Positions 10,309-57,612 of a stretch of DNA of 64,000 nt are shown here, piece after piece (positions within the stretch are counted from its first letter, which is position 1; each line of letters opens with the position of its first letter). The notes under the pieces are model-generated. The model had not been told where the DNA came from, searched no databases, and saw only the letters and a program-made list of their open reading frames with translations. The stretch is from Cohnella faecalis (lineage in GTDB: Bacteria > Bacillota > Bacilli > Paenibacillales > Paenibacillaceae). Made by a program: the position numbers and the translations under genes. The stretch is taken from contig NZ_QXJM01000063.1 in the NCBI RefSeq assembly GCF_003570905.1, forward strand, positions 1 to 64,000, read 5' to 3'.

Positions 10309-10672
10309 GGGGGCGTTTATGGATTCGACGGGGACAGTTCGAGCATGGGTAGCGGGTAGTAGGGCTGCGACTGCTTCAACAACGCGGAAAGCCTATTAAA
10401 CGGCAAACAACAACAACCTCTGGCTCTGGCCGCCTAATAACGGTCACCAGGCTTCTACTCTCCATCGCCCATGTGGCGGGATAGGGGCTCAACTTTAGTG
10501 GGATACGCTGTCTAGTCTCCGCCTGGGGCTAGCTGAAGAAGACAATCAGGCTGACCCAACGCGGAGCCGGTTCCGGGGCGCCGCTCGGGTGACATCAAAA
10601 CTGGGACTACACCCGTAGAAGCACATGTGGCGTTGTCTTCGGACAGGGGTTCGACTCCCCTCGCCTCCACCA
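10309..10672 (+). ncRNA. ssrA: Transfer-messenger RNA (tmRNA), 364 nt
   Basis: The 5' end GGGGGCG pairs with CGCCTCC before ACCA at the 3' end (one G-T pair), forming the alanine-type acceptor stem. The T arm AGGGGTTCGACTCCCC lies at ~10645-10660. The tag reads GKQQQPLALAA from GGC 10402 and ends in TAA TAA at 10435-10440; its LALAA end matches the protease-recognised end of known tags. The exact resume codon (GGC or the codon before it) is inferred. Conserved 5' wording TTTATGGATTCGACGGGGAC is present. With SmpB it frees stalled ribosomes and tags the nascent chain. The 3' end appears to have served as an integration site. Confidence 0.97.
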
Positions 10673-10679
10673 TCATGAA

Positions 10680-10706
10680 AGCCAGCCGCAAGAGGCTGGC
10701 TTTTTT
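10680..10706 (+). terminator. Intrinsic terminator after ssrA
   Basis: AGCCAGCC - GCAAGA - GGCTGGCT plus TTTTTT. The terminator and its GCGTGGAGCGCGAGG flank recur at 26818-26857. Confidence 0.9.
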
Positions 10707-10959
10707 GCGTGGAGCGCGAGGGGCGAGAGTCGCCCCAGTCCGAAGGAGGACATTGGGGTTCGCCCGCGCGCAGGGAGCGAAGCGGACGAGCACGGCATCT
10801 CATTCTACCTCTAAGACCGTCATCCGCGAATTGGCTTCGTCAGCAAAGTTAATCAAGAATGGGATACCCCTGAGCCGAATAAAGAATCGCGAGACAAGAA
10901 ACCGACACGAAGTAGTCGTGTTTCGTATGGGGAGCTGAGTGGCTCTTGCAACAAACTAA
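10707..10959. other. Intergenic stretch without a convincing gene
   Basis: A mostly GC-rich 250-bp stretch after the ssrA terminator. Open frames here are short, overlap the tmRNA or lack ribosome binding sites. Apart from the shared GCGTGGAGCGCGAGG flank I see no feature. Confidence 0.6.
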
Positions 10960-10988
10960 AACCCCGATAGCAAGAGATCGGGGTTAAT
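10960..10988. terminator. Bidirectional terminator
   Basis: AACCCCGAT (10960-10968) pairs with ATCGGGGTT (10977-10985). It lies 3' of the leftward retropepsin remnant and has T-rich sequence on both sides. Confidence 0.75.
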
Positions 10989-11002
10989 TTTATACATACT
11001 AT

Positions 11003-11198
11003 TTACTTTTTATGAATTTCTAGCATTTCAGTATCGATAATGATGCCCGCAATACGCATAAAATCAAAACCTAAGATGCCGTTGATTTCTAACCCATAAT
11101 TCATTTCTCCAACTTCAATTTCAAAATGATCTAACTGAATATCTTCGATCTTCAAGGAATTTAATGTTTTGAAGCCCGTCAATAAGTTCAATGTTCAT
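11003..11198 (-). pseudogene. Retropepsin-like aspartic protease remnant lacking the catalytic core
   Basis: A start ATG at 11198 gives MNIELIDGL, the usual opening of small retropepsin-like proteins. It then runs, in another frame, straight into the C-terminal third: LNSLKIEDIQLDHFEIEVG and GINGILGFDFM-like wording ending IIIDTEMLEIHKK. The middle, where the catalytic Asp-Thr-Gly would lie, is missing, so this is an internally deleted, inactive copy. Its start overlaps the stop of the upstream small gene (ATGA), as in intact two-gene pairs of this kind. It lies in the ssrA-flanked segment. Confidence 0.6.
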
Positions 11199-11452
11199 CC
11201 TCTACCTTTAATTCCAATCCATCTTCGTTCACGAATTTCTACCCTTGGTCTAGAAGTATGAAAGAAGTAAAACTCATTGGCTGGACGAGTTCTCTGCAAT
11301 TCATTACATTGCTTCATTGCTTCAAAAGAGTCGTCAAACTTTTGTACAATTGCCATTCGTCTACGAGACGGAGCCCGTCATCTGAGTGTACTTGAATAGC
11401 TTCAATGACTACCCATTCGTTAGGGTAAAGATTTTGCACTTCGTTCCACTTC
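11195..11452 (-). pseudogene. Small conserved partner of the retropepsin-like gene, frameshifted
   Basis: From ATG 11452 the frame gives MKWNEVQNLYPNEWVVIEAI and HSDDGLRLVDE, then stops early. The next frame continues AIVQKFDDSFEAMKQCNEL and ends RPRVEIRERRWIGIKGRG at 11195. One missing base near 11353-11357 (GAAGTGGCA to GAATGGCA) explains the break. Small proteins beginning MKW-x-x-(V/I)-x-x-LYP occur directly upstream of retropepsin-like genes in Bacillales; their function is unknown. Both members of this pair are broken. Confidence 0.55.
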
Positions 11453-11514
11453 ATGATGGTCCTCCGTTCGTTGCTTTTGATTTTAGTATATATCAGCTTA
11501 GTATCACCTTCAAT

Positions 11515-11590
11515 GGTTCCGGGGCGCCGCTTGGGTGACATCAGAACTGGGACTACACTAGTAGAAGCGCATGTGGCGTTGTCTTCGGAC
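11515..11590 (+). repeat. Diverged fragment of the tmRNA 3' half
   Basis: This 76-bp stretch matches tmRNA positions 10569-10644 at 71 of 76 bases. It ends at CTTCGGAC, just before the T arm, so it cannot form a working tmRNA end. The five differences imply a copy from a related tmRNA allele or an old duplication. Confidence 0.85.
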
Positions 11591-11698
11591 GAGGTTGTGG
11601 ATTTTTGCTTTTCCGGTACTTGTGGCTTTAGTTAATCGTTAATCTTGCAAATAAGGAAAATATCTGATGATCTCTTTACAAGTTTACTAGCCATACCT

Positions 11699-11723
11699 TG
11701 AACTGCACCCCAAATGTTAGACA
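11699..11723. mobile_element. Possible IS3-type insertion sequence end
   Basis: TGAACTGCACCCCAAATGTTAGACA resembles terminal repeats of IS3/IS150-type elements as I recall them. No transposase frame is nearby, so at most this is a relic. Only a database search can confirm it. Confidence 0.25.
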
Positions 11724-11771
11724 TAACTATGATCAAGTTCAGTACAGATTGATCCCTGCTTAGAATACACA

Positions 11772-11800
11772 ACAGAGATATGACCTCTCTGTTTTTTTTA
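11772..11800 (+). terminator. Terminator-like hairpin
   Basis: ACAGAGA - TATGACC - TCTCTGT followed by seven further T. No intact gene precedes it on this strand. Confidence 0.55.
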
Positions 11801-11887
11801 ATTATATATTGGGCGATACATGGTAATTGTAAAATTATTTCAGTTTGTCACATGATAATATGGTGACAGGAGTAACTATTATTTAAG

Positions 11888-12145
11888 ATGGATTATTTAT
11901 ATAATCATTTGATTATTCAAGATACAGATGAGAAAACAGATCTAACCCCATTAGTCGAAATTGACGGTGAACAGATTAGTCTGGACAAGCTAAAAATATC
12001 AGAGTTTGATTATGCGAAATTTGGAGGAATGGACAGTGAGGAAATCATCATTACTAACAAGAAAGGGACTATACACGAAGTGTTTCCTAATACTTGTTAT
12101 TACGTATGGGTCGGTCTTTTTTTCGGGAGAGGCTTATGCTGCTAA
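11888..12145 (+). CDS. Small open frame overlapping the SLH gene start; doubtful
   Basis: This 85-codon frame opens MDYLYNHLIIQDTDEK and continues TDLTPLVEIDGEQISLDKL, which reads like real protein, but it overlaps the SLH protein's likely start and signal peptide by 110 bp in another frame. There is no good ribosome binding site before ATG 11888. It may be the 5' remnant of another gene joined to the SLH gene, with its last ~35 codons meaningless. Confidence 0.25.
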   Translation: MDYLYNHLIIQDTDEKTDLTPLVEIDGEQISLDKLKISEFDYAKFGGMDSEEIIITNKKGTIHEVFPNTCYYVWVGLFFGRGLCC

Positions 12146-14981
12146 TCCTGTAAGCGTATCTCTAACAGGGAATGCGGTCACGATTGCTTATGGACAAAGC
12201 GTGACATTGAGTTCAACGGTCACAGATACTTTGGGTGGCAGCAATTCCCCTGTGGGTACGGTTACGTTTGTCGATAATGGCACAACGATTCAAACAGCTC
12301 AACCGTTAATAGAACAAACACCTGAGATTATTGTAGAAGCCTCGCCTCCAGGTATTATTCCAAGTGGATACAAACAAGCGTGCATGATTGATGGCAGAGA
12401 TAATAATCCGGTTGGGTCTCCAACCTGTCCAGTTTTGAAATGGGGAGAGTATACGTTCTGGGGATACAGCGATACCAATAATATGGGGATTTTCAATATT
12501 GTGCAATACAATAAGGAAGGAGTTATCATCAATCAAGATATCTTCCAGTCAGAAACTAGATATTTGTATAAAATCGAGCTGGACAACACGAACCATACGG
12601 TTTCCTTTGTTGGGCAATCGGAAAAGAGGATAACAGTAAGCATAAACTCACTGAAAGCAGCCAACAGTATTGCTTCGATAACGACTCCTCCGCTATCGGT
12701 CGGCGTTCATGAGTTTAAGGCAGAATTTAATTCAAGCGACGGCAACCATGATAATGAGGTGTCATCAACCTTTAAGGTAAACGTTTCCCAAATCACACCT
12801 TCGGTCTCACTGACGAGCAGCGTTCCATCGTCGGCTTATGGGGAGAGGGTGTCATTTGAAGCAGAAGCTCCCTCTGTAAGCGGCCTTGTTCCTAGCGGGG
12901 ATGTCATTTTTTACGATGGGAACGTAGAGTTGGGGGCCGTAACCTTAGGGAATAGCGGCGTAACCTCGGCTGTCTATGAGACGTCAAGTCTTACGCCAGG
13001 CGTTCATATGATTACTGTGAGATACTCCGGTGATAATAACTTCGAATCTCGCACATCCTTGCCTTTGACGTATACGGTTAATCGCATTGCGGCGAATCTG
13101 AGTCTGACCTCCAGTTCGAGCCAATTATCTTATGGCTCAGGTGTAATGTTCATGGTTCACGTACCTGCCATAAATTTGGTTCCTGTCACAGGTACCGTAA
13201 CATTTAAAGATGGAGCCACCCTGTTATGTAACGTTCCCATAGGGACAGACGGTACCGCACAATGTTCTGCACCCCTGTTATTAGCAGGCAGCCACACCAT
13301 TACTGCGAGCTACAGCGGTGATAGTCACTATACGGATTCAACGAAGAGTATGCTACAAACCGTGAATAAAATAGGGTCCCAAATTAATTTGAATGGCTTA
13401 CCATCTACGGTAGCAGTGGGGGACTCAGTTTCGGTCGATGTACAAGTCGATACGCTCGGTAATGTCATGCCTTCAGGTACTGTTGATATTATCATAGATG
13501 ATCAGACGGTCAGTTCGCCCGAGCTTGAGGCGAATGCCAGTATTCATTTGAATATACCGCAGCTTTCTGTTGGATCGCACAAGATTGAGGCGGCTTATCG
13601 AGGCACTGATAATATCGAGAGCAGCGTTTCGACGGCACAGGTAATAAACGTGCTGAATAATAATGCAGACTTGAGCGGAATTGCCCTGTCGAGCGGCAAA
13701 CTATCTCCTGTATTTTCGACCAGTATAACCTCTTACAGTGCTAATGTTGCTAATCATGTATCTAGCATTGTCGTAACACCTAACGTCTATGACAGCAATG
13801 CCACGATGACAGTGAACGGAGCACAGGTTTCTAATGGTCAAGCAAATAAAACCATCAATTTAAGTGTAGGCAGCAACACCATCACCATCGTAGTGAAGGC
13901 ACAGGACGGAACACTAAATACATATTCAATTCTAGTGACACGCGAACAGGAATCATCCAGTAGCGGCAGCGATTCATCGTCGACGGCATCAAACGATACA
14001 GTTATCTCAACAGACGGTACACTAAAGCTTCCCGTCAATAAAACTGGTTTAGTTAGCTTGGGCGATTCAGTCCAGATCTCTATTCCTGCTAATGCTACAG
14101 ACAAAGAACTGATATTAACAATTGAGAAATTGACGGACTCATTAAAACTAATTACGAAAAACGACGTTCTGGCTAGCCCGATATTCGAAATTCTAAAGAA
14201 CTTCTCGGAGAATTTCAGCAATGAGATTTCGATGACCTTTGCTTTCGATCCGAATAGCTTGACGGACGATCAAGAACCTTTCGTATTCTACTATGACGAA
14301 TCAAAACAGGTCTGGGTGAAAGTCGGCGGAGAGGTAAACGGCAATACCATCACCGTAAGAGTTAATCACTTCACAAAGTTTGCGGTATTCGGTGTAGGAC
14401 AAGCTTCAGATCCCACATCAAACACGAAGCAACCGACAAGCTTCAGTGATATCTCCGGGCACTGGGCGGAGGATAACATCAAGCAAGCGGTTAGCGCCGG
14501 TATTGTCAGCGGCTATCAGGACGGCACGTTCAAGCCAAATCGTGCTGTAACGCGAGCAGAATTTGCGGTCATGCTGATGAATGCCCTCAAACCGCAAGGG
14601 GATGAAGCGACGCTGACGTTCGCCGATAAGTCGAAGATCGGCACCTGGGCGCAGAAATCGGTTATGCAGGCGGTGTATGCAGGAATTATTACGGGCTATG
14701 AGGACAACATGTTCCGTCCGGATGCTGAAATTACTCGCCCGGAGATGGCAACGATAATTGCCAAAGCCATGGCTCAGACAGTCGAAGAGAAGATAGCAAC
14801 GGGCTTCGTGGATGACAATTACATTCCAGACTGGGCGAAAGGCGCAGTGGCTTTTATGAAAAATTTGGGTATTATCCAAGGTAAAGGCACGAACCAATTT
14901 GCTCCGAACGATAAAACGACAAGAGCAGAAGCAGTGACGGTACTGCTGAGAATGGTGGAGCAAAGAGCAGCTCGTACTTAA
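12036..14981 (+). CDS. Ig-like repeat surface protein with three SLH domains
   Basis: A secreted protein of about 980 residues, probably held on the cell wall. GTG 12036 is chosen because GGAGG lies 8 bp upstream and a signal peptide follows (basic start, then CFLILVITYGSVFFSG and AYA-A). Next come bacterial Ig-like repeats ending in motifs such as TVRYSGDNNF and TASYSGDSHYTDS, then a cadherin-like sandwich domain (LSPVFSTSITSYSANV, VKAQDGTLNTYSI). A Ser-rich linker and a further beta domain lead to three SLH domains (FSDISGHWAEDNIKQAV, TWAQKSVMQAVYAGII, PDWAKGAVAFMKNLGII), which bind pyruvylated wall polymer. Its role (adhesion or matrix) is unknown. It lies inside the ssrA-flanked segment. 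Confidence 0.85.
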   Translation: MRKSSLLTRKGLYTKCFLILVITYGSVFFSGEAYAANPVSVSLTGNAVTIAYGQSVTLSSTVTDTLGGSNSPVGTVTFVDNGTTIQTAQPLIEQTPEIIVEASPPGIIPSGYKQACMIDGRDNNPVGSPTCPVLKWGEYTFWGYSDTNNMGIFNIVQYNKEGVIINQDIFQSETRYLYKIELDNTNHTVSFVGQSEKRITVSINSLKAANSIASITTPPLSVGVHEFKAEFNSSDGNHDNEVSSTFKVNVSQITPSVSLTSSVPSSAYGERVSFEAEAPSVSGLVPSGDVIFYDGNVELGAVTLGNSGVTSAVYETSSLTPGVHMITVRYSGDNNFESRTSLPLTYTVNRIAANLSLTSSSSQLSYGSGVMFMVHVPAINLVPVTGTVTFKDGATLLCNVPIGTDGTAQCSAPLLLAGSHTITASYSGDSHYTDSTKSMLQTVNKIGSQINLNGLPSTVAVGDSVSVDVQVDTLGNVMPSGTVDIIIDDQTVSSPELEANASIHLNIPQLSVGSHKIEAAYRGTDNIESSVSTAQVINVLNNNADLSGIALSSGKLSPVFSTSITSYSANVANHVSSIVVTPNVYDSNATMTVNGAQVSNGQANKTINLSVGSNTITIVVKAQDGTLNTYSILVTREQESSSSGSDSSSTASNDTVISTDGTLKLPVNKTGLVSLGDSVQISIPANATDKELILTIEKLTDSLKLITKNDVLASPIFEILKNFSENFSNEISMTFAFDPNSLTDDQEPFVFYYDESKQVWVKVGGEVNGNTITVRVNHFTKFAVFGVGQASDPTSNTKQPTSFSDISGHWAEDNIKQAVSAGIVSGYQDGTFKPNRAVTRAEFAVMLMNALKPQGDEATLTFADKSKIGTWAQKSVMQAVYAGIITGYEDNMFRPDAEITRPEMATIIAKAMAQTVEEKIATGFVDDNYIPDWAKGAVAFMKNLGIIQGKGTNQFAPNDKTTRAEAVTVLLRMVEQRAART

Positions 14982-15029
14982 TGCTTTAATCTGGATTCCA
15001 ATCGATTTTCTAGTCGTATTTGACGACAA

Positions 15030-15431
15030 GTGGATGAGGAATTGGCTGTCATGATTGCAAGAGCTATTGCTTACGCCAATCCTTCCTTGCAGGCATCTAG
15101 TGGAGAGTTAAGACCAACTGATTCTGATCATATCTCTTCATGGGCGGAGGATGCTGTTAATCAAGCACTTGAATTAGGTATCATCAAAGGCGATCAAACT
15201 GGAAATTTCAAGCCAAAAGCAGAAGCAACACGTGCAGAAATGGTTACATTACTTTCTTGTATGCTGCAAAATAACGCTTATATCGTACCTTCGGCGACTT
15301 CTCCGTTCTCAGAAGTCGGGTCCAACTGGTTAGCGAATGAAATCTGCGCATTTGCTGACGGGACGGTAAGACGGCAAGGGAATCATGAATACGTGAGGAC
15401 AGATCATTGCAAGAACGAGCGACTCCGGTGA
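15030..15431 (+). pseudogene. Fragment of another SLH-domain protein
   Basis: Starting mid-domain, this frame reads DEELAVMIARAIAYAN, then a full SLH unit (DHISSWAEDAVNQALELGII, GNFKPKAEATRAEMVTLL) and part of a next one (FSEVGSNWLANEI). It has no start region, signal peptide or ribosome binding site. It lies 49 bp after the complete SLH gene, so it looks like the tail of a second SLH gene left by recombination. The last ~35 codons before the tmRNA-end repeat do not look like SLH sequence. Confidence 0.6.
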
Positions 15432-15452
15432 ATTGTGGCTTTGCACAGTCGC

Positions 15453-15467
15453 GGTTCGCCTCCACCA
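15453..15467 (+). repeat. Second copy of the tmRNA 3' end (candidate attachment site)
   Basis: GGTTCGCCTCCACCA: its last 12 bases equal the last 12 bases of ssrA, including the encoded CCA. It is followed by a terminator 14 bp later, which could be the original ssrA terminator. Confidence 0.55.
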
Positions 15468-15481
15468 ACCTTATCAGAAGA

Positions 15482-15509
15482 GGCACCTCCCTCGTGAGGT
15501 GTCTTTTTT
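15482..15509 (+). terminator. Intrinsic terminator after the second tmRNA-end copy
   Basis: GGCACCTC - CCTCGT - GAGGTGTC (one G-T pair) followed by TTTTTT. No intact gene precedes it. Confidence 0.8.
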
Positions 15510-15654
15510 GTTTTTTTCTCTATTCGTGGCGGTTGCGGAAACCTTGATATGCTTGGGGTTTGGCACCATATGAGAGGGATCAGAAGTATTTTGGCCGCCC
15601 TTTAATTGGATACCTCCACTCAAAAGGTTATGGATGCAAGATGACATCATTAAC

Positions 15655-16048
15655 TTAGCGGTCGAAACTCTTCTTATCCGGCTGATGAATACCGAAAATA
15701 TTCCCTTCCGTGTCCGTGTAATACCCTTGCCAGGCCATTCCGGGCAACGCGTACTTGGGTAGGGCAAGCTTGCCTCCAAGCTCAAAGATTTTTGCTTCGG
15801 TGGAATCGTAGTCTCCTACTCCTATGGTGCATGCATAACCGTTCATTGCCTGCCCCGGTTCCGGGGAAGCGCCTTGACGCTGCATTAGAGCCCCCAAGCT
15901 CATTCGCATCACCCGTCACAGCTCCGAAATAGGACATTCCGGCATAATCGCTCCAATCTTCAAATGTCCATCCGAATACGTCTCCATAAAACTTTTTGGC
16001 GCGCTCAATGTCGTCTACATGAATCTCGAAATGAACTAATCTGCCCAT
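15655..16048 (-). pseudogene. Glyoxalase/VOC-family protein, frameshifted
   Basis: The N-terminal half from ATG 16048 reads MGRLVHFEIHVDDIERAKKF and FYGDVFGWTFEDWSDYAGMSYFG-like wording; the C-terminal half in another frame reads MNGYACTIGVGDYDSTEAKI, GGKLALPKYALPGMAWQGYY and TEGNIFGIHQPD. Together they make one VOC protein of about 130 residues with both beta-alpha-beta-beta-beta modules. The break is at a run of five C (15891-15895). Unlike the other breaks, it needs one base removed or two added. VOC proteins include metal-dependent isomerases, dioxygenases and resistance proteins; no specific role can be given. Confidence 0.7.
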
Positions 16049-16386
16049 ACCTGCCTCCTATACTTTGACTTCCTTATACATTCTCTTAGTATTGTTTCAA
16101 CTTGCTGCACAATGCGCTAAAATTTACGAATGAAGGCGAAGTGTCGATCCGGGTGCAGACGGTCGGCGAGAACGCCGGCTGCTGCCAGGAGAAAGTCCAG
16201 CCCAAAGGATCGCGGTGGAAGACTGACCGAGCACAAACCCACGAAGAATAAGATTGACAGCGCTAAAGTCGTATGATAATTTGTAATTAGAACGTTCCAA
16301 TTAACGAAGAGTAAGACTCGTGTACAGTATTATTGTTATTGCTGAAAACGCATGCAATAAAAATACAATTCAGATTCGAGGATATT
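16049..16386. other. Intergenic region upstream of the LacI gene
   Basis: About 340 bp with no convincing gene. The right part carries the LacI-type operator (16285-16302) and probably the regulator's promoter. The left 230 bp show nothing I can name. Confidence 0.5.
16285..16302. promoter_or_regulatory. LacI-type operator 1 (regulator gene)
   Basis: AATTAGAACGTTCCAATT is a near-perfect palindrome centred on GAACGTTC, about 85 bp before the LacI start. The same 17-bp sequence recurs at 17527-17543, before the transporter genes. Confidence 0.75.
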
Positions 16387-26746: not shown

Positions 26747-26817
26747 GGATTGCTAAAAGCATTAAGCGACGGCGGATTGTGGATTCGCTAAGTCACGGCC
26801 GCCTTCGCGCAAAGGAA

Positions 26818-26857
26818 CCAGCCGCATTAGGCTGGCTTCTTTGCGTGGAGCGCGAGG
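26818..26857 (+). terminator. Operon terminator, repeat of the ssrA terminator module
   Basis: CCAGCC - GCATTA - GGCTGG then CTTCTTTG. With its 3' flank GCGTGGAGCGCGAGG it is almost the same as 10682-10721, downstream of ssrA. Confidence 0.7.
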
Positions 26858-26875: not shown

Positions 26876-28018
26876 CTAATCTGCAATGCAAACGATATAT
26901 TCTCCTCGGCTAGGACCTGATTTTATAACTCCCAACTCTTTAAGTTTTGAAATGTTTTTGGCAATACTTGAAGGGGAGGCTGCCAAGATATCATCAAACA
27001 GTTGCCTATGAAATATCTCTCCGTCTTCCATCCTGCTAATTAACTCGAACATTGTTTTAGCATGCCCTCTTCCCAATAGTTCACGGATATGTTTTATCTT
27101 ATCGTAACGTTGGAGTTCTTTGAGAACTTTGGTAAGAGATGCATTAACGCATTCCAGATAAAATACAATAAAAGGCTTTAGGTTTCCTTGAGTTGCAGTC
27201 ATAAGCGTGTCGTAATAATCCTCGATTCTTTTATCGAAGAATTCTTCAACACTAAATGCATCCTTGATTGTAGCGAGGTCGGGATGAATTAAGCCAACCA
27301 AAGTTGAGAATGCTCGAGCTGCTCTCCCATTACCGTCAGGAAATGGGTGGATATAGCCTATTAAATGGTGGGTTACCCCAGAAATAATCAGAGGATGCAC
27401 TTTCTTTTCGAGATTTACTTTTTCCGTTTCATAGGGGTTCAAAAATCCAGTAACACTAGTGTATAGCCAGGAAAAGTAGGCCTGCATGAGTCGTGGCACT
27501 TCATTGAAGGCAGGGGGTTGATAACTAATGTGCCCATCACCGTCTTGAAGTGCTACCGGTATATTTCTATAACCCTCTGGATAGCCGGTTAAGTCGTTCA
27601 TTAAAGTGTGTTGGATTTTTTTTAATACAGGTTCATCCATGTCTGTGAAATCTTTATTTGGCTCTAAACTGTAAATATATTCATAGGTCTCAAAGACGTT
27701 CTTAACTTCCAATTGAGCCTTTTGTTTTATAGTAAGTGGGTTTCTCTTGTAATTTTGATAAAGTTGCTCTACTTCTTTGTACTCCAGTTTATTCTGTTCA
27801 ATTTTAGTTGTGAAATGAGCTGTTCTAACTAGTGAGTTACGCAGGATTGTGGGTTTTAATGGATGGTTTTTTAATCCAAGTCTAGCTAAAGCCCCTATAT
27901 TTCGCTCTGCCTCAAGGATAAGTTGTTGTATTTCATAGTCGTAGGGATTGAGATTGGGTTTATAGATTAAACGTCCTTCTGTAGTATCAAAGTGTTCGTA
28001 AGCAAAAAAGTAAGTCAT
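26876..28018 (-). CDS. Fic-family protein with C-terminal winged helix
   Basis: Fic enzymes transfer AMP (or another nucleotide moiety) to target proteins. The 380-residue product has the complete active motif HPFPDGNGRAAR at ~225-236, and an N-terminal segment TTKIEQNK resembling the self-inhibitory helix motif of class II Fic proteins. The C-terminal ~80 residues (MFELISRMEDGEIFHRQLF, SSIAKNISKLKELGVI) form a winged-helix DNA-binding fold. ATG 28018 follows AAGGTGGTG. It is AT-rich compared with its left neighbours and divergent from the HNH nuclease gene, so it may be accessory. It may act alone as a toxin-like regulator. Confidence 0.9.
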   Translation of the reverse strand: MTYFFAYEHFDTTEGRLIYKPNLNPYDYEIQQLILEAERNIGALARLGLKNHPLKPTILRNSLVRTAHFTTKIEQNKLEYKEVEQLYQNYKRNPLTIKQKAQLEVKNVFETYEYIYSLEPNKDFTDMDEPVLKKIQHTLMNDLTGYPEGYRNIPVALQDGDGHISYQPPAFNEVPRLMQAYFSWLYTSVTGFLNPYETEKVNLEKKVHPLIISGVTHHLIGYIHPFPDGNGRAARAFSTLVGLIHPDLATIKDAFSVEEFFDKRIEDYYDTLMTATQGNLKPFIVFYLECVNASLTKVLKELQRYDKIKHIRELLGRGHAKTMFELISRMEDGEIFHRQLFDDILAASPSSIAKNISKLKELGVIKSGPSRGEYIVCIAD

Positions 28019-28217: not shown

Positions 28218-29093
28218 ATGAATGACGAAGAACTGCGGAAAAGGATTGCCAATCTCTCGATATGGAAAAAGAACGGTCAAAGAGCTCCGCACAAGCCGTT
28301 GCTTCTGCTCTTCGCATTAGCTCAGCTTCAGCAAAACCAAACCATTTTGTCTTATGCAGATACTAGAGCGAAGCTAAGGAAGCTTCTATTCGAATTTGGC
28401 CCGCCAAGAAAGTCCTATCACCCGGAAGAACCATTCGTGAGACTAACGACTGATGGTATATGGAAACTCAATATTCCTGTAAATAAACATAAATTTTCCG
28501 ATAAGCAGCTCATAACAGATCACGCGGCAGGTGGATTCGATCCGGCAGTATTAGCTCTGCTGCAAGGCAGCAGCAGGCTGATTCAAGAAATCGCCGAGCA
28601 ACTGCTTCACGATCATTTTCCACAGTCGGTTCACCAGGATCTCGTGGATGAAGTAGGGTTGCAGCTGTCTTTGGCGACAAAACGAAGACGCGACCCTGAT
28701 TTCCGCAATAAGATCTTGAAGGCTTACGAGTTTAGCTGTGCTATATGCGGGTTTAATGTTCGATTAGGTCATAATCTGGTTGCTGTTGATGCGGCACATA
28801 TTCAATGGCATCAAGCCGGTGGACCGGACAGTGAAGAGAATGGAATTGCTTTATGTACGTTGCACCACAAGTTGTTCGACCGTGGGGTATTTACGATAAC
28901 CGGAGAACGGGAAATGCTCGTCGCCGAGGAAGCGCATGGAACGCAGGGGTTTGAGGAATGGCTGATGAGATTCCATGGCAAACGCATTCGAGCGCCAATT
29001 CATCCGGTGTATCAGCCGAAGGAGACTTTTATTGAGTGGCATGTCCGGGAAGTTTTTAGAGGACCGGCACGTTATAACGCAACATACCAATAA
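28218..29093 (+). CDS. HNH nuclease resembling phosphorothioated-DNA-dependent restriction endonuclease
   Basis: The N-terminal half has the wording of sulfur-binding domains from type IV enzymes that recognise phosphorothioate DNA: RAPHKPLLLLFALAQLQ, KLLFEFGPPRKSYHPEEPFV and RLTTDGIWKL. The C-terminal half is an HNH nuclease: Cys pair SCAICGF, VDAAHIQWHQAGGPDSEENG, then ALCTLHHKLFDRGVF. Such enzymes cut incoming DNA carrying Dnd-type sulfur modification. No dnd genes are in the window, as expected for a host that restricts rather than makes the mark. Length is 291. The family call rests on recalled motifs and needs a profile search. Confidence 0.75.
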   Translation: MNDEELRKRIANLSIWKKNGQRAPHKPLLLLFALAQLQQNQTILSYADTRAKLRKLLFEFGPPRKSYHPEEPFVRLTTDGIWKLNIPVNKHKFSDKQLITDHAAGGFDPAVLALLQGSSRLIQEIAEQLLHDHFPQSVHQDLVDEVGLQLSLATKRRRDPDFRNKILKAYEFSCAICGFNVRLGHNLVAVDAAHIQWHQAGGPDSEENGIALCTLHHKLFDRGVFTITGEREMLVAEEAHGTQGFEEWLMRFHGKRIRAPIHPVYQPKETFIEWHVREVFRGPARYNATYQ

Positions 29094-30371: not shown

Positions 30372-30524
30372 CGTGGAGCTCCTTTCCTTTGAGCGCTGTC
30401 TTACGATAGTATAAGATTACAGCACTTCCTGACGACTGTAAACGACAAGACCTATTGGGCTTGAAATCATGATTTAATGCGATACAGTAGTATTATCTAT
30501 ACGAATTCAAGAGGGTGGATAACA

Positions 30525-31652
30525 ATGGAATTTGAAAAATACATCATACAAAAAAATATAGAGCATGCGATTAAAAGCGAAGCAGTAACAAAGTTGAGCG
30601 ACATCCTTCGGCTTCTGCCCAAGACTCGCTTGTATGAGATAGCAACGAATCGCGATCTTTTGGGGCGCTCCAAGATGAGCAAGCAGGAGCTTGCGGATGC
30701 GCTGTTCGAGCTTATTCCGGATGTTTACGAACTGGAAACGACATTGATCATTTCGGATGCCGAAGAGTGGAATTTGTTTAATAAGCTTTTGAAAGCCCCG
30801 TATGTCCAAGAGGAAACGCTCACTCCGAGGATGTATTTGTTTTTGATGAATCGGGGCTTGCTGTTTTCTTTTTATTATGAGGACAAGCTAATCTACTCCA
30901 TCCCGGAGGAAATCAAGGACTCGTATCGGCAGTTGTCGCAGCAATCGTTTCATGAAGCTCGTGACCGCTGCCAATTGATCAATCAGTATATAAGCGCATC
31001 GGCGAATTTGTACGGGATCTGTACGCTGGACAAAACCATCGAAATTTTTAACGCTCAGAATGAAAAACAAGTAGACGAGAACGAGCTCATTTCTTTTCTC
31101 AATTTAGCTTCCGGCAGAGGTCAAGAATGGTACTTGAATCAAGGGTACATCATTAGCAACTATTTTGACTCGGAGGATCAAGACGAAGAGTTGAAAGCGC
31201 TGCTGGAGAGGGCCAAGCACAAGCCGTACTACATTCCGCCCCAACCGGAGTTTTTGAAATACGCGGATTCCGGCTATTTCGAAGAAACTCCGCAGTTGGT
31301 CAGCTTGCGGGCTTTTATTTTGAAGCACTTATGCAAGGATAAAGAATTTGTAGAAAACCTTGTGGATGATATTCAGGTAGCTTGCTCAATGGAAGAGCCG
31401 CTGAGTGTGATAATGGGGGAGTTTGAGAGAAGAGACATTATTTTTGATAATAATGCGCAAGTGCAGGCGATCATGCCGTTGATCATAGACGTCTATAATC
31501 ATACGAGAATTTGGTCTAATCGCGGCCATACACCGGCTGAGTTAGGGGGAGGCGCCGGTCAGACAGCCAGACCGATATCGAATAAAGTCGGGAGAAACGA
31601 TCCTTGTCCGTGCGGAAGCGGGAAAAAGTACAAAAAGTGTTGCGGAAAATGA
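30525..31652 (+). CDS. SEC-C motif protein of unknown function
   Basis: The 375-residue product is mostly helical and acidic, with no recognised enzyme motif. It ends in a textbook SEC-C metal-binding motif ([18 protein letters not shown]), the zinc-binding tail also found on SecA. In stand-alone proteins the motif often adds metal- or ribosome/nucleic-acid-binding ability. ATG 30525 (MEFEKYII) follows GAGGGTGG; an upstream in-frame ATG at 30477 lacks a site. A 28-bp gap to ung suggests co-transcription. Confidence 0.8.
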
Positions 31653-33320: not shown

Positions 33321-33512
33321 GTGATTCGGCAAGATAGTCTTTAGGTAAATTACAACTCGTCTCCACGGTTATGCAAATTGCGGAAGCGGATATATGCGGA
33401 AACAAAACGATTCTTTTGTCCTATCAAGAAGGGGATCTATGCATGAAAATTGAAATTGTTATATATAATTTGTGACTACTTTGAACTGAGAACAACAGGA
33501 GGCTTTAGCAAT

Positions 33513-36500
33513 ATGAAACAAGGCCTTTATGAGCAAGTTATCAACCAAATTACCGCGCAGCGGCTATCCGGCTTGGATGCGGCAGTCTTTAACGTGGGCA
33601 AAGAAAAGCTGGATGTCGAAGAGGCGCGAAAGCTGCTTTCCAACTACATAGGTCTTGTCACCCGGAGAGCCTTGAAGATGGTGCGCGAACAAACAAGCAA
33701 TGACGAGGAGCTTATACTCGCCCAAGTCCAAACCTGCAATGAAATGATCGCGACGCTTAAGAGCAGCCTTGGGCCGGAGGAATGCGAGCAGCTTAAGCTC
33801 GACGAGCAGGGCGAAATCCTTACTTACATCTATTCGAAGATCAATCATATCCGCTCCTTCAAGGATGAGAAAATAGTCCGCCCGGCGACACCGTTATCGC
33901 AAAGCTCGCTATTCACAGGCTCGCACTCGGAACCGAATATGCTGTATGAGCTAAAGCATGAGATTGTGACGGCGGATCGGATCGATTTTCTCGTTTCGTT
34001 CATTAAATGGAGCGGGCTTCGTTGCTTAATGGAGCAGCTTGAACAATTCACTTCGAACGGCGGACAGCTGCGAGTCATCACGACAACTTATATGGAAGCG
34101 ACAGACTACAAAGCAGTCATGGAGCTTAGCAAGCTCACCAACACGGAAATTAAAATTTCCTACGACACCGACCGGACCCGACTGCATGCAAAAGCTTATG
34201 TTTTCAAACGGGACACCGGCTTTACGACTGCTTACGTCGGTTCATCCAATCTTTCCAATCCTGCGCTGACCAGCGGCCTGGAATGGAACCTAAAGGTCAC
34301 CGAGAAGGACTCTTACGATGTCCTCAAGAAAATCGAAGCGACCTTCGAAAGCTACTGGAACGACAGGGAGTTCAAGAGCTTTATTTCATCTGATGTGGAG
34401 CACGGACACCAATTGCAGCAGGCTCTTCGAAAAAACAAACCACCTGGGCAAGCTTCGCTTTATTTTCCGTTCGAAATCACTCCTTACGACTTCCAAAAAG
34501 AAATTCTTGAAAAGCTCGAAGCCCAAAGAACGCTTTACGGACGCACGAACAATCTGGTTGTTGCCGCCACGGGAGTCGGGAAGACGGTCGTATCCGCTTT
34601 TGATTACAAACGATTTGCCAAACAGCGCTCGCATGCGCGGCTGCTGTTCGTTGCTCACCGGGAAGAAATTTTGAAGCAAAGCCGAGATACATTCCGGTAC
34701 ATTCTGAAGGATCTGAACTTCGGCGAGCTGCATGTAGGCAGCAACCAAGCTCAGTCGCTAGACCATCTTTTCATTAGCATTCAGAGCTTCAATTCCATGC
34801 GACTCGCGGAAAATACGACGCCGGAGTTCTACGATTATATTATTGTGGATGAGTTCCATCATGCAGCGGCGCCATCGTACCAGAAGCTGCTCGCTTATTA
34901 TAGGCCTCGGATTTTACTCGGTCTCACCGCTACGCCGGAGCGTATGGATGGAAAAGACGTTCTGGGTTACTTCGACGATACGATCGCTGCTGAAATTCGA
35001 TTAACGGATGCTATTGATCGGAAGCTGTTGAGTCCTTTTCAGTACTTCGGCGTCACCGATCAAGTCGACCTGTCGCAGGTGAAGTGGTCCAGGCGTGGTT
35101 ACGACCTCGCGGAGCTGGAAAACTTGTATACGAACAATAAGATTCGGGCCATGCAAATTTTTAACAGTATGAAGAAGTATGTTACAGAGCTGGAGCAGGT
35201 GAAAGGGCTCGGTTTTTGCGTCGGGGTCGATCATGCTTTATATATGGCCAAAATTTTCGAGGAAGCTGGAATGCCCGCAATTGCGCTGCACGGAAAATCG
35301 AGCGATGAAGACCGGAATCAAGCGAAAAGCCGACTCGTAAGCGGCGACATCAGGATGATCTTCGTCGTGGATCTGTACAACGAAGGGATTGACATTCCGG
35401 AGGTTAACACGATCCTGTTCCTTCGTCCAACCGAGAGCTTGACCGTGTTCCTGCAGCAATTAGGACGCGGCCTGCGTCTAGCCGAAGGGAAAGAGTGCCT
35501 TACTGTACTCGATTTTATCGGACAGGCCCACCAAGACTACAATTTTCAAGATAAGTTCCGAGCTCTAATCGGGAAAACGAAGCATTCGGTGCAGCATTAC
35601 GTGGAGCACGGCTTTTCGAATCTCCCTCGCGGGAGCTTTATTCAGCTTGAAAAGCAAGCGAAGGTATATATTCTTCGCAACCTTAAGCAATCGACGACGA
35701 CTCGGAGAAGCTTGATTAACAAAATAAAATATTTTGAAGGGGATAGCGGCTTAAAGCTAACTCTGGAAAGCTTTTTACATTATCACGGGCTTAGCTTGTA
35801 TGATCTTTATGGAGGAAGAACCGGCAATCGTACGTTTAATGGCCTTAAGGTAGAGGCAGGGCTAATGGATGCTTATGAGTGGGAAAACGGCGAGTATTTA
35901 ACGAAGCGAATCCCGGCATTGCTTAGTCTTAACTCGCGGCGATTATTGCGGTTTGTTCTTGCCTATTTGCAGGAAGGTGCGCAGCCGCAGACGGAAGAAG
36001 AGCGGCTGATGCTGAATCTGTTCTACTTTACGTTCTACCGATCAGAGCCGAGGAAGCAAGGGTTTGAAAACGTCGAGCAAGCGATTGAAGCGATTATGTC
36101 CTGCTCCGTCTTCCGTGAGGAAATCGTCGACATTCTGAAGATCAACTTGTCGCACATTGGTTTCGTGGACAAGAGGAACGAATTTACGTACGCATGCCCC
36201 TTGGATATTCATTGCAGCTACTCGATGGATCAAGTGTTGGCCGCTTTCGGCTACTGGAACGAGGAGAAAGCGCCGAGCTTCCGTGAAGGCGTGAAGTATT
36301 TCGAGGACAAGCAAACCGACATTTTCTTTATTACGCTTAATAAATCGGACAAGGACTTCTCGCCTTCCACGCTATACGAAGATTATGCAATCAATGAGCG
36401 GTTATTTCATTGGCAAACTCAAAGCCGGACTTCCGAGGAATCTAAAACAGCACAGCGATACATTCACCACAAGCAGCAAGGAACGCGAATCGCTTTGTTC

Positions 36501-36665
36501 GTCCGGGAATACAAAGAGGAGCATAACTACACATCCCCGTTCGTCTTCCTGGGTGAGGCGGAATATGTCAGGCACGAAGGCAGCAAGCCGATGAGTATGA
36601 TCTGGCGGCTGAAGGAAGAAATGCCACCGGCCCTAATACCGGCTGCGAACAAAGTCATCGTATAG
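33513..36665 (+). CDS. PLD-nuclease / SF2 helicase / DUF3427 protein
   Basis: A 1050-residue multidomain protein. Residues ~130-290 form a phospholipase-D-type nuclease domain with the HxKxxxF-type core (RLHAKAYVF then YVGSSNLSNPALTSG). Residues ~330-700 are a superfamily 2 helicase: Walker A AATGVGKTVVSAF, DEFHHAAAPSYQ (DEFH box), GLTATPERMDG and motif VI QQLGRGLRL. The C-terminal ~300 residues match DUF3427 by position. Proteins of this build occur in mobile or defence settings and are thought to process foreign DNA. ATG 33513 follows ACAGGAGG. It is followed by a Nudix gene, the usual partner. Confidence 0.85.
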   Translation: MKQGLYEQVINQITAQRLSGLDAAVFNVGKEKLDVEEARKLLSNYIGLVTRRALKMVREQTSNDEELILAQVQTCNEMIATLKSSLGPEECEQLKLDEQGEILTYIYSKINHIRSFKDEKIVRPATPLSQSSLFTGSHSEPNMLYELKHEIVTADRIDFLVSFIKWSGLRCLMEQLEQFTSNGGQLRVITTTYMEATDYKAVMELSKLTNTEIKISYDTDRTRLHAKAYVFKRDTGFTTAYVGSSNLSNPALTSGLEWNLKVTEKDSYDVLKKIEATFESYWNDREFKSFISSDVEHGHQLQQALRKNKPPGQASLYFPFEITPYDFQKEILEKLEAQRTLYGRTNNLVVAATGVGKTVVSAFDYKRFAKQRSHARLLFVAHREEILKQSRDTFRYILKDLNFGELHVGSNQAQSLDHLFISIQSFNSMRLAENTTPEFYDYIIVDEFHHAAAPSYQKLLAYYRPRILLGLTATPERMDGKDVLGYFDDTIAAEIRLTDAIDRKLLSPFQYFGVTDQVDLSQVKWSRRGYDLAELENLYTNNKIRAMQIFNSMKKYVTELEQVKGLGFCVGVDHALYMAKIFEEAGMPAIALHGKSSDEDRNQAKSRLVSGDIRMIFVVDLYNEGIDIPEVNTILFLRPTESLTVFLQQLGRGLRLAEGKECLTVLDFIGQAHQDYNFQDKFRALIGKTKHSVQHYVEHGFSNLPRGSFIQLEKQAKVYILRNLKQSTTTRRSLINKIKYFEGDSGLKLTLESFLHYHGLSLYDLYGGRTGNRTFNGLKVEAGLMDAYEWENGEYLTKRIPALLSLNSRRLLRFVLAYLQEGAQPQTEEERLMLNLFYFTFYRSEPRKQGFENVEQAIEAIMSCSVFREEIVDILKINLSHIGFVDKRNEFTYACPLDIHCSYSMDQVLAAFGYWNEEKAPSFREGVKYFEDKQTDIFFITLNKSDKDFSPSTLYEDYAINERLFHWQTQSRTSEESKTAQRYIHHKQQGTRIALFVREYKEEHNYTSPFVFLGEAEYVRHEGSKPMSMIWRLKEEMPPALIPAANKVIV

Positions 36666-40650: not shown

Positions 40651-41052
40651 TTAATAGATCCGTCTGCACTGTTTTTCAATCATTTCCGCTAACTGCCGAA
40701 AAGTATACGTATGATTCACCATATCTACAGTGAAATCCTCAGCGGCTTTTTGCTCCATATCAAAAGAATAGCTGTTATATTTGAGAAAAATAACGAGCGC
40801 AACAAAAGCCGTTCTTTTGTTGGCATTGTGAAAAGGGTGATTTTGGCCAATTGATTCAAAAAGAGCGGCGGCCTTCTCAAATAGAGTAGGATAAGCATCT
40901 TCGCCGAAGGCTGATGATTGGGGACGGAGAATAGCGGAATCCAGCAGCCCTCCATCCTTGACTCCGATCAGCTCGCCGGGACTGTATTTCTTGATAAGCG
41001 CGATATGGATAGCTATGACTTCCTGAACGGTGAGATATCGGAGAGCAGACAT
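40651..41052 (-). CDS. doc: Doc-type Fic toxin
   Basis: A 133-residue Doc protein with the intact motif HPFHNANKRTAFVALVIFL. Doc enzymes phosphorylate elongation factor Tu and stop translation. LTVQEVIAIHIALIKKY and GVKDGGLLDSAILRPQ are standard family features. It starts one base after the antitoxin stop (TAATATG), a typical coupled toxin-antitoxin layout. Unlike the phage P1 system its partner is an AbrB-type and not a Phd-type antitoxin. Confidence 0.93.
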   Translation of the reverse strand: MSALRYLTVQEVIAIHIALIKKYSPGELIGVKDGGLLDSAILRPQSSAFGEDAYPTLFEKAAALFESIGQNHPFHNANKRTAFVALVIFLKYNSYSFDMEQKAAEDFTVDMVNHTYTFRQLAEMIEKQCRRIY

Positions 41053-41053
41053 A

Positions 41054-41317
41054 TTATCGATCCTTCAAGCCTTTTATCGTTTCATCGTACTGTTCCATTA
41101 CTTGAGACAGAGTATCCATAAAGTCGGTGCCGATCCCTGCGGGCAAAGTCACTTTGTTTGCTTTTTTGATAATGATTTCACTGTTGTCATCTCGTACATC
41201 CACGATTACGGTGTCGCCCAATTCAAGGCCGATTTTTTTTAGCGCTTCGGTCATAGTGATCCCTAGACTGTTGCCGAATTTGGTAACTTTGCGTTCCATT
41301 TCGATCATCCTACTCAT
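41054..41317 (-). CDS. AbrB/MazE-type antitoxin of the Doc toxin
   Basis: An 87-residue protein with an N-terminal SpoVT-AbrB swapped-hairpin fold: RKVTKFGNSLGITMTEALKK and LGDTVIVDVRDDNSEIIIKK. The C-terminal tail (GTDFMDTLSQVMEQYDETIK) would wrap the toxin. ATG 41317 follows GAGGAGGTTG at ideal spacing; ATG 41299 is an alternative. It binds and inhibits Doc and probably represses its own promoter. Confidence 0.9.
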   Translation of the reverse strand: MSRMIEMERKVTKFGNSLGITMTEALKKIGLELGDTVIVDVRDDNSEIIIKKANKVTLPAGIGTDFMDTLSQVMEQYDETIKGLKDR

Positions 41318-54539: not shown

Positions 54540-56351
54540 GTGGATACAAAACTATGGATGTCGATACTGCTCATTTTCGCGACGGCGCTCATGCTGTTCA
54601 TTTCCTATCTGTCCTACCAGAAACGCCACTTGCCTGTGGCGAGAACGGTGATTTTCATTATGCTGGCGGCGGCGTTTTATTCGCTTGGCTACGCGATCGA
54701 GATTTTGAGCGTAAGCTTGCGCGGTGTAAAGCTTGCTCTTCATATCGAATATTTGGGCATACCTTTCGTGACGGTGCTGTGGCTTGTACTCGTCCTTCAA
54801 TTTACCAACATTGCGGCCAAATACCGAAGACGTCTTATGCTGCTCCTGTTCGCCATTCCTGTCGCTACCTTTTTTCTCCATCTAACTAATGACTGGCACC
54901 ATTTCGTGTACAAAGAATACGTATTGAACCCGGATGGCGTTTTGCCCCGGTATAACACGGTCAAAGGGTTCTGGTATCATGTGAATGGCTATTACAATTA
55001 CTTCGTTATCGCGGCAGGAATGGTTCTGTTCATTCCGATGTACTCGCGAGCCTTGCCCATCGTAAGAAAGCAGATTCTTATCATTGCCTTGGGCGCGGTC
55101 GCCCCCTTCGCATTCAATTTGATCTATCAATTTGCCAGGACGTCGATCGATTTGACGCCGTTCGGCTTCGCCGTCTCGGGGTTCGCCTGTGTGTGGGGAA
55201 TTCTCCGCATCAATCTGCTGAGGTTGACGCCGCTCGCGCTGGCCAAAGTGTTCGATACGATTCGTGACGGCGTCGTGCTGCTTGATTACGAGGATCAGAT
55301 CGTAAGCTTCAACCGCGCCGCCGAAGAAGTATTTCCGGAGCTCGCCGCGACCAAGCGCTACCCTGCGCCGGGCAAAAGGGTGTTGTCCAATTGTCCGGAG
55401 CTGCTGGAGAGGATCGCTGCGGCGAACGGCCTTGATGAACGGTTTCCGTTCCAACGTTCCGGGATGAACCGGCATCGGCACTACATATGCAGCTTGTCTT
55501 TCATTTACGATATTGGCATGGATCCGATCGGCAAAATTGTCATGTTCAACGAAATTACGGAGCTGATGGAGAATGAAGCTCGGCTGCGCGAGAACGCCCG
55601 ACAGCTATCCCGGTTGAATGCGTTCAAGGACAAGCTGTTTACCGTTATGGCCCATGATATTCGCGATCCGATTGCGCTGTTGGTCAGCCTGACCGAGCTG
55701 CTTGGCGAGGAACCGTCGGAAACCGATATTGAGCATGCCGAAGTGTTTCAGGAAATTAGGAGGCAAGTGCGCAACACTTACCATCTTGTCGATAATCTTC
55801 TGGATTGGTATCGCAGCCAGAACGGAAAGGTCGCTTTTCGTCCGTTGGAATGGAACCTGCAGCAGGTCGTTCGACAAGCTCTGTCGCTTGCCGGGGCTAG
55901 AGCAGGCATGAAGCAAATTCTTATGACGGAAAATATCGACGACGCATTGACGGTAAGCGCGGATAAGGAAATGCTCGATCTTATTCTTCGTAATTTACTG
56001 TCGAATGCGATCAAGTTCACCGGAGTAGGCGGTCGGATCGAGTTCGGAGCTGTCGTGGAAGGCGATCTGGTGAAAGTGTCCGTTAGCGATAACGGGATGG
56101 GGATCGACGAGGAGACGTCCGAGCTGCTGCGGCAAGAGGAGCTGTTCTTCAAGGAGCCGGGCTCTGCGAACGAGAGAGGCGAGATGAGGTTCGGGCTGCT
56201 TCTGACTCGCGAATTTCTCCGCATTCACGGCGGGAGTCTCCGGTTCGACAGCGTTCCGGGAGAAGGAACGACGTTCCTGTTCACGCTGCCGGGTTCCGCT
56301 AACCGAGGGGAGACGGCAGAAAGCTATCAAACGGCGGTGAGAAAATTATGA
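54540..56351 (+). CDS. Histidine kinase with 7TM sensor, PAS and kinase core
   Basis: Residues ~1-230 form seven membrane helices of the 7TM histidine-kinase sensor type (LHIEYLGIPFVTVLWLVLVL, NDWHHFVYKEYVLNPDG). A PAS-like region follows (VFDTIRDGVVLLDYEDQIVS), then the H-box FTVMAHDIRDPIALLVSLTE (His at ~360) and the ATPase core with N box NLLSNAIKFTG, G1 DNGMGIDEE and FGLLLTREFLRIHGG. It autophosphorylates and passes the phosphate to the response regulator encoded next, with a 4-bp overlap. GTG 54540 follows a run of nine G. The signal is unknown. Confidence 0.92.
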   Translation: MDTKLWMSILLIFATALMLFISYLSYQKRHLPVARTVIFIMLAAAFYSLGYAIEILSVSLRGVKLALHIEYLGIPFVTVLWLVLVLQFTNIAAKYRRRLMLLLFAIPVATFFLHLTNDWHHFVYKEYVLNPDGVLPRYNTVKGFWYHVNGYYNYFVIAAGMVLFIPMYSRALPIVRKQILIIALGAVAPFAFNLIYQFARTSIDLTPFGFAVSGFACVWGILRINLLRLTPLALAKVFDTIRDGVVLLDYEDQIVSFNRAAEEVFPELAATKRYPAPGKRVLSNCPELLERIAAANGLDERFPFQRSGMNRHRHYICSLSFIYDIGMDPIGKIVMFNEITELMENEARLRENARQLSRLNAFKDKLFTVMAHDIRDPIALLVSLTELLGEEPSETDIEHAEVFQEIRRQVRNTYHLVDNLLDWYRSQNGKVAFRPLEWNLQQVVRQALSLAGARAGMKQILMTENIDDALTVSADKEMLDLILRNLLSNAIKFTGVGGRIEFGAVVEGDLVKVSVSDNGMGIDEETSELLRQEELFFKEPGSANERGEMRFGLLLTREFLRIHGGSLRFDSVPGEGTTFLFTLPGSANRGETAESYQTAVRKL

Positions 56352-57496: not shown

Positions 57497-57512
57497 ATAG
57501 TTTCGACAAAAG

Positions 57513-57558
57513 CCAAAAATCGCGAGGTTTGGATGCCGCGCGGTTTTTGGTTTTTTTT
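57513..57558 (+). terminator. Intrinsic terminator of the two-component operon
   Basis: CCAAAAATCGCG pairs with the CGCG-containing GGTTTTTGG side and is followed by TTTTTTTT. Confidence 0.8.
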
Positions 57559-57612
57559 GCAAGTGAAGGAACTGGAAGCCGAATGAAGAACTCATAAGAG
57601 GAGGTGGATTCC

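Follow-up and report, generated by a model that had tools for sequence, protein, structure and literature searches.

Tandem Insertions at the ssrA 3′ End in Cohnella faecalis: The Probable Remains of an Old Array

Known Systems and the Present Locus

Islands inserted in tandem downstream of ssrA, the gene for tmRNA, have been described in detail for Dehalococcoides. Repeats of the ssrA 3′ end mark their boundaries, with a conserved motif just upstream of the repeat (McMurdie et al. 2011, PMC3146451). A CcrB-like serine recombinase, described as the DsiB/DsiA system, is encoded on the reverse strand, such that the 3′ end of its gene overlaps ssrA. The recombinase module is present in 16 of the 31 islands and absent from 15 (PMC3146451). 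Islands in ssrA have also been reported from C. difficile and C. perfringens, where this spot was noted for large serine recombinases (PMC10061031).

Two further systems can be compared with such islands. SCC elements use the recombinases CcrA/CcrB/CcrC at rlmH. Chromosomal integrons are tandem arrays of small cassettes without a recombinase, which have palindromic end sites and carry cargo of the toxin-antitoxin type.

The locus considered here lies in a window of 64,000 nucleotides (the whole stretch of DNA that was analysed) from Cohnella faecalis, forming part of contig C60 of a 6.4-Mb draft genome (G000). Since the arrangement matches the one published for Dehalococcoides, it is classed here among ssrA-targeted tandem insertions, as an array in decay; the Paenibacillaceae arrays are treated as a variant distinguished by small units and a site of its own. 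Very probably, the window holds the proximal end of an old tandem array that was inserted at the ssrA 3′ end, with a CcrB-like serine recombinase as the most likely enzyme, and that is probably immobile now.

The Paenibacillaceae arrays resemble the published description of Dehalococcoides in their tandem islands, in the motif that precedes the repeat, in an antiparallel CcrB-like gene at ssrA, and in the many units without a recombinase. They differ from that description in belonging to another phylum, in their cargo, and in their many units of 0.7–2 kb with one or two genes. The sites differ as well: a 20-bp repeat is described for Dehalococcoides, whereas two kinds of site occur here. Type-1 sites consist of up to about 100 bases of ssrA, and type-2 sites are palindromic with a short end in common with ssrA. 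The type-2 motif differs by eye from the published 15-bp motif of Dehalococcoides, and the likeness to DsiB is drawn from its published description rather than from an alignment. Like the Dsi islands, the window has sites in tandem (three of them). It lacks a large serine recombinase antiparallel against ssrA; among the genomes searched, 15 of the 16 having such an enzyme carry it in that position.

The islands of C. difficile and C. perfringens share with the present case the ssrA target and a large serine recombinase in the Bacillota. They are single examples, and neither a family of sites nor cassette arrays are described in the passages of PMC10061031 that deal with them. SCC elements are similar in their large serine recombinase of the CcrB type, in targeting the 3′ end of a gene present in single copy, and in their tandem composites; a replication-type gene nearby, as in locus L061, is a further likeness. 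The target is ssrA and not rlmH, and a recombinase with 176 of the 900 bits required of CcrB places these arrays outside the SCC elements. The likeness to integrons lies in small recombinase-less units in tandem, a palindromic site at each end, and toxin-antitoxin-type cargo. The differences are the ssrA anchor, a candidate enzyme that is a serine and not a tyrosine recombinase, and the lack of an integron integrase on C60, where no PF00589 match is seen.

No description of ssrA arrays in the Paenibacillaceae was found in the open-access literature searched. As far as that literature shows, these arrays, the type-2 site, and the many recombinase-less units of 0.7–2 kb are new here.

The ssrA Gene and the Sequence Following It

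The array is anchored by an intact ssrA gene (10309–10672, + strand), identified by ARAGORN and by the Rfam model RF00023 with 182 bits; its 3′ end is the putative insertion target. It is followed by a terminator (10673–10710, +) of a type also found after ssrA copies in other Cohnella. Next comes a non-coding module (10711–10936, +) that starts with the ssrA 3′ end in inverted orientation (76% over 72 columns) and continues with a conserved body. This module is also present after ssrA and after ssrA fragments in other genomes.

The order of ssrA terminator, inverted ssrA 3′ end, and conserved non-coding body (10637–10936 in the window) recurs in L175, L141, and L140. In some genomes the unit is repeated in tandem. 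The body is likewise found after ssrA fragments broken in the T-loop (L146 near 9410, L147 near 9718, and L173 near 16194), where it looks as if it had been inserted. In another locus (L128, genome G010), two full-length copies of ssrA stand in tandem with 124 bases between them.

A match to ssrA was obtained in 58 of 60 genomes, that of the window included. Many of the 60 have extra pieces of the ssrA 3′ part on the same contig, downstream of ssrA, which often start at about ssrA position 260–290. When 12 related loci are compared, the sequence diverges abruptly right after the ssrA 3′ end.

One such piece is the type-1 site of the window (11515–11590, +). A reading made earlier from the sequence alone had noted here a match to the 3′ half of tmRNA, and this was confirmed: the fragment corresponds to ssrA positions 261–336, with 71 of 76 bases identical (93.4%), and scores 64.8 bits in a profile search. 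The next 24 bases (11591–11614, +) are the 3′ half of an ssrA-type terminator and are identical to the terminator after ssrA in L126 (G033). Because the fragment stops at ssrA position 336 and is followed directly by these 24 bases, it is read as a displaced ssrA end with its terminator, from which an internal deletion would have removed the tmRNA acceptor end and the 5′ half of the terminator.

The remains of a two-gene cassette, coding for an aspartyl-protease-like protein and a small partner, are located on the reverse strand (11003–11541, −). The pair is now in three pieces, and its relatives in L137 are two open genes. The stretch 11173–11590 aligns in one piece, at 83%, to the L137 cassette (G032), which has its own type-1 site. 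Further downstream lies the gene for a 991-residue surface protein with Ig-like, cadherin-like, and three SLH stretches (12006–14981, +), and then a detached SLH-domain fragment of the same protein cluster (15030–15431, +). Of 72 array stretches, which include several from one genome, 12 (about 9 genomes) contain members of this cluster, formed by single linkage. The cassette pair and the detached SLH piece bear out the broken genes of the earlier reading. The possible IS end that it placed in the interval was not confirmed; a domain scan of ten ORFs in or beside the interval gave no transposase domain.

The Repeat and the Type-2 Site

The final 12 bases of ssrA, TCGCCTCCACCA (10661–10672), occur again at 15456–15467, where the sequence-only reading had placed them, and nowhere else in the window even when one mismatch is allowed. 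With 0.28 matches expected, at least two matches at one mismatch were obtained in 6 of 100 shuffles, so the 12-mer by itself is weak evidence. The evidence becomes strong because the stretch 15422–15467 (+), which ends in the 12-mer, scores 48.0 bits (E 4.6e-14) against a profile built from 78 sites of other loci, with the window left out. Twenty shuffled windows reached 9.1 bits at most.

The repeat had been taken for a plain direct repeat of ssrA. It is instead the end of a distinct, recurring 41-base site, the type-2 site, in which the part upstream of the 12-mer is unlike ssrA. A conserved motif adjacent to the ssrA repeat on its upstream side is thus present. The consensus of the 78 sites is GGCGAATTGTGGTTTTGCACAGCCACGGTTCGCCTCCACCA, and its first 34 bases are palindromic. 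The second terminator of the earlier reading was found beside the repeat, as a hairpin with a T run recognised from the sequence (15468–15510, +).

If the site were empty, ssrA should read directly into this terminator. It does so, into a terminator of the same kind, in L052, L132, and L139; the genes beyond have no close match to those of the window. Among the relatives examined, neither an empty–occupied pair for the window's array nor a relative with the same 4.8 kb was seen.

The type-2 motif is widespread. Searched as the consensus minus its first three bases, with at most 3 mismatches, it is present in 43 of 295 genomes of the family (that of the window included) and in 11 of 19 genera; a reversed-pattern control gave 0. 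With up to 7 mismatches, 49 matches were obtained in the loci examined. The 29 that share a locus with ssrA (28 distinct sites, one being counted twice via two loci of one genome) are all downstream of it and on the same strand, and the other 20 are in stretches without ssrA. G222 has seven type-2 sites within about 97 kb of ssrA. An exception is G145, with a type-2 site at 3.47 Mb and ssrA at 0.21 Mb, about 3 Mb apart. The motif was absent from the viral contigs (as an exact pattern), plasmids, and phages searched.

Written as RNA, the consensus could fold into a hairpin of 14 bp, with G-U as the only kind of non-Watson-Crick pair; an example in the window is 15427–15460. The pairing of the inner stem is above that of shuffles, 3 of 2000 of which reached it, and that of the outer stem, reached by 111 of 2000, is not clearly above them; covariation and pairing lend the palindrome weak support.

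Two other readings of the site were dropped. It is not an ssrA end with a 10-base deletion, since the same upstream half recurs in many genomes. Nor does it encode a protein C-terminus: the frame of the terminal CCA CCA mostly has stops upstream, and there is no common long gene. The 55 places with CCACCA before a terminator are excluded as evidence, the ends of ssrA itself being among them. A third kind of junction was also seen, after a gene ending in ...LGKDAPP.

The Array beyond the Second Terminator

The island was at first thought to end at 15467. A further, decayed type-2 site is present at 26756–26798 (+; profile score 24.6 bits, E 8.9e-7), and array cargo continues to 57.6 kb. This site is missed by a plain pattern allowing up to 11 substitutions. 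It is followed by a terminator (26818–26857, +) that is 92.5% like that of ssrA over 40 bases. By profile the window has three sites, two of which are damaged. The profile search gave no further site beyond 26.8 kb, so membership of the array is judged there by common cargo only. The repeat is best read as an insertion boundary, and the 4.8 kb between ssrA and it as no more than the near portion of an array that extends farther.

Cargo blocks out to 57.6 kb have 66–85% nucleotide identity to sequence beside ssrA or beside such sites elsewhere, and their orientation relative to ssrA or the sites is the same in the matched loci as in the window. The first is a VOC/glyoxalase-like gene split over two frames (15655–16048, −), where 15671–16098 is 78–80% identical to copies in L053, L064, L112, and L213. 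A Fic-domain gene (26876–28018, −) is 85% identical to a copy in L173 (G052), 81% to L218 (G188), and 80% over 661 bases to L208 (G222). G052, the source of the 85% match, belongs to another family of the order.

The HNH-domain gene (28218–29093, +) has 72% nucleotide identity to a relative in L159 (G006), which is located just after a type-1 site far from ssrA. Likewise, the relative of the SEC-C-domain gene (30477–31652, +; 66%) is the only listed ORF between ssrA and a type-1 site in L133 (G059), and the relatives of a helicase/restriction-like gene with PLDc, ResIII, and DUF3427 matches (33450–36665, +; 74–75%) lie between two type-1 sites in L044/L135. A Fic/Doc gene with its partner, for which a MazE match is below the cut-off only (40651–41317, −), is 68–69% identical to sequence in L208, L113, and L194. 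The most distal array block in common is 56804–57560, at a response-regulator gene (56348–57496, +), with 77% identity to L211 of the G222 array.

For the stretch 16.3–26.7 kb, with LacI, sugar transport, and dehydrogenase genes, other arrays offer no close match, and it may be ordinary chromosome. The stretch 62.3–63.8 kb, which is not array cargo, matches the part of L080 upstream of ssrA.

Arrays across the Family

Of 80 named SmpB loci, surveyed with flanks of up to 10 kb on either side, 34 carry one or more additional sites downstream of ssrA and on its strand (40 type-1 and 7 type-2 sites), a count that includes low-scoring type-1 matches such as 18 bits in L101 and 26 bits in L051. No such site is upstream of ssrA in these 80 loci (836 kb). 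Two type-1 matches are on the opposite strand (L119 and L121). Many intervals measure 0.7–2 kb and contain one or two genes. For 137 of the 185 array ORFs, the Pfam families considered are the commonest 25 of 123, so that families occurring once could be missed.

The ssrA end is a hotspot of gene exchange in the family, marked by the repeat, since relatives have the sites, the cargo genes, and sometimes the likely inserting enzyme in common.

The Candidate Enzyme

Matches to PF00239 between ssrA and known sites were found in 2 of 18 genomes (G021 and G035). Through the G021 gene, a large serine recombinase was located against ssrA in the named loci L045 (in two pieces), L047, L061, L070, L094, and L099, and also in L150. 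A decayed copy is present in L091, and remnants are beside type-1 sites in L066 and L087.

The L061 protein (P0005), from Paenibacillus sp. NEAU-GSW1, has Resolvase, Recombinase, and zinc ribbon domains. Its best NCBIfam match is CcrB (E 9.7e-52), with 176 bits against a cut-off of 900. It is followed on the same strand by RadC-like and Prim-Pol genes. When 394 genomes were searched with this protein, scoring three candidates per genome, 16 had a match at E <= 1e-70. In 15 of these, the recombinase gene is antiparallel to a full-length ssrA, with −1 to 59 bases between the end of the aligned C-terminus and the ssrA 3′ end. In the sixteenth (G005, L295), the member of this recombinase family is located beside a tRNA-Ala gene and not ssrA, a possible change of target.

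From these sequence comparisons, a CcrB-like large serine recombinase appears to be the best candidate for the array enzyme. Two genomes, G188 and G062, combine on one contig the recombinase gene at ssrA with type-2 sites; together with the Dehalococcoides precedent, they suggest by analogy that the serine enzyme may act on type-2 sites. The window has no copy of this large serine recombinase, and G000 has none at E <= 1e-70. G222, with its seven type-2 sites, has no such recombinase in the stretches examined. Since the recombinase is found in 16 of 394 genomes and type-2 sites in 43 of 295, most arrays are without a close copy of it.

Alternative Explanations

The sequence-only reading pointed to tyrosine recombinases. 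In this explanation, tyrosine integrases of ssrA-targeting phages or conjugative elements made the insertions, as is usual at tRNA and tmRNA genes, and the integrases were later lost. Such an origin is improbable here. According to PMC4383910, tyrosine integrases habitually target tDNA, L100 and L117 have remnants of integrases downstream of ssrA, and a tyrosine-recombinase-like gene of 194 residues is present in the ssrA arrays of other genomes; but tyrosine recombinases are rare in these arrays, and it is the CcrB-like large serine recombinase that was found against ssrA. Among 23 genomes searched (ssrA of G120 was not placed), a PF00589 match between ssrA and known downstream sites occurs only in G214, and the match in G024 is beside a distant ssrA fragment. 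The copies of the 194-residue family lack the usual Arg-I and are followed by an mrp operon. No tyrosine integrase is present inside the window's island, and of the four PF00589 matches in G000 none is on contig C60. For this question Pfam searches are a better test than a home-made tyrosine-integrase profile, which is narrow.

A second possibility needs no site-specific enzyme: homologous recombination between copies of ssrA, or tandem duplication, would have spread the ssrA fragments. The tandem full-length ssrA copies of G010 and two look-alike consecutive cassettes in L055 agree with such a process. It is nevertheless very unlikely, because type-2 sites match ssrA in a short 3′ end only, yet occur in 11 of 19 genera, and because the sequence after the ssrA end differs between neighbouring species. 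Finally, the 12-mer at 15456 might be a chance similarity in a region of ordinary variable chromosome. The shuffles described above give this some room, but the 48-bit match to a profile built without the window contradicts it, as do the terminator of the same type after 15456–15467 and the second site at 26.8 kb, and the idea can practically be dismissed. All of these are ranked below the main explanation, in which a CcrB-like serine recombinase would have inserted segments at the ssrA 3′ end.

The 194-residue protein (P0001), which is strongly conserved, was considered separately as a possible array enzyme. It is present at >=77% identity in 32 of 394 genomes. A full ssrA is on the same contig in 22 of the 32, and P0001 lies downstream of it on the same strand in 21, at 0.2–141 kb; the exception is G024, with a type-1 fragment 1.3 kb upstream of P0001. 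It is on another contig than ssrA in nine genomes, and the G281 contig has ssrA pieces only. The usual Arg-I position, as taken from alignments to XerD-type chains, is occupied by S, N, or G in all 30 aligned copies. At each of the 19 loci examined (L226, L158, L258, L264–L277, L282, and L283), P0001 is followed by the same usp-like gene and mrp-type genes. Without Arg-I and with such constant neighbours, P0001 was rejected as the array enzyme; it may simply ride in the mrp cassette. In G214, the P0001 block is flanked by type-2 sites on both sides.

A Model for the Arrays

In the model preferred here, successive segments would have entered at the ssrA 3′ end. With each new arrival a functional ssrA would be re-formed, and the segments already present would be moved farther from it. 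The far end of each unit would then be marked by a displaced ssrA piece (type 1) or by the conserved palindrome that finishes with CCTCCACCA (type 2), in most cases with a terminator next to it. In elements carrying it, the recombinase gene would lie antiparallel against ssrA. Most units have no recombinase; they would need a copy acting in trans or would have to leave along with an adjacent unit.

In the window, the intact ssrA is at one end, and the displaced fragment (11515–11590) and the repeat (15456–15467) are beyond it, all on the + strand. The earlier claims of insertions at the ssrA 3′ end, of more than one event, and of decay are supported. The array looks stranded and is probably no longer mobile, because the genome has no close match to the enzyme, genes of the cassettes are disrupted, and damage affects two of the three sites.

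These arrays extend the ssrA-anchored tandem islands, known in detail from Dehalococcoides, to a large family of the Bacillota. A candidate enzyme can be named, and the type-2 site provides a sequence tag for finding arrays in which no recombinase is left. If small cassettes do move in trans, this would be a second form of integron-like gene collecting, based on a serine recombinase.

A broader and more tentative proposal, which is possible but on balance doubtful, is that the Paenibacillaceae have an integron-like system anchored on ssrA. It would draw on a pool of one- and two-gene cassettes, each with an ssrA-like or palindromic end site, and form arrays of tens to perhaps more than 100 kb. 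A CcrB-like serine recombinase, gained and lost over time, would move the cassettes in trans, and they would be exchanged across genera and even families.

L173 (at 6–15 kb) and L222 (at 5–15 kb), two arrays, have in common a multi-gene block that looks like a Wadjet-type defence operon.
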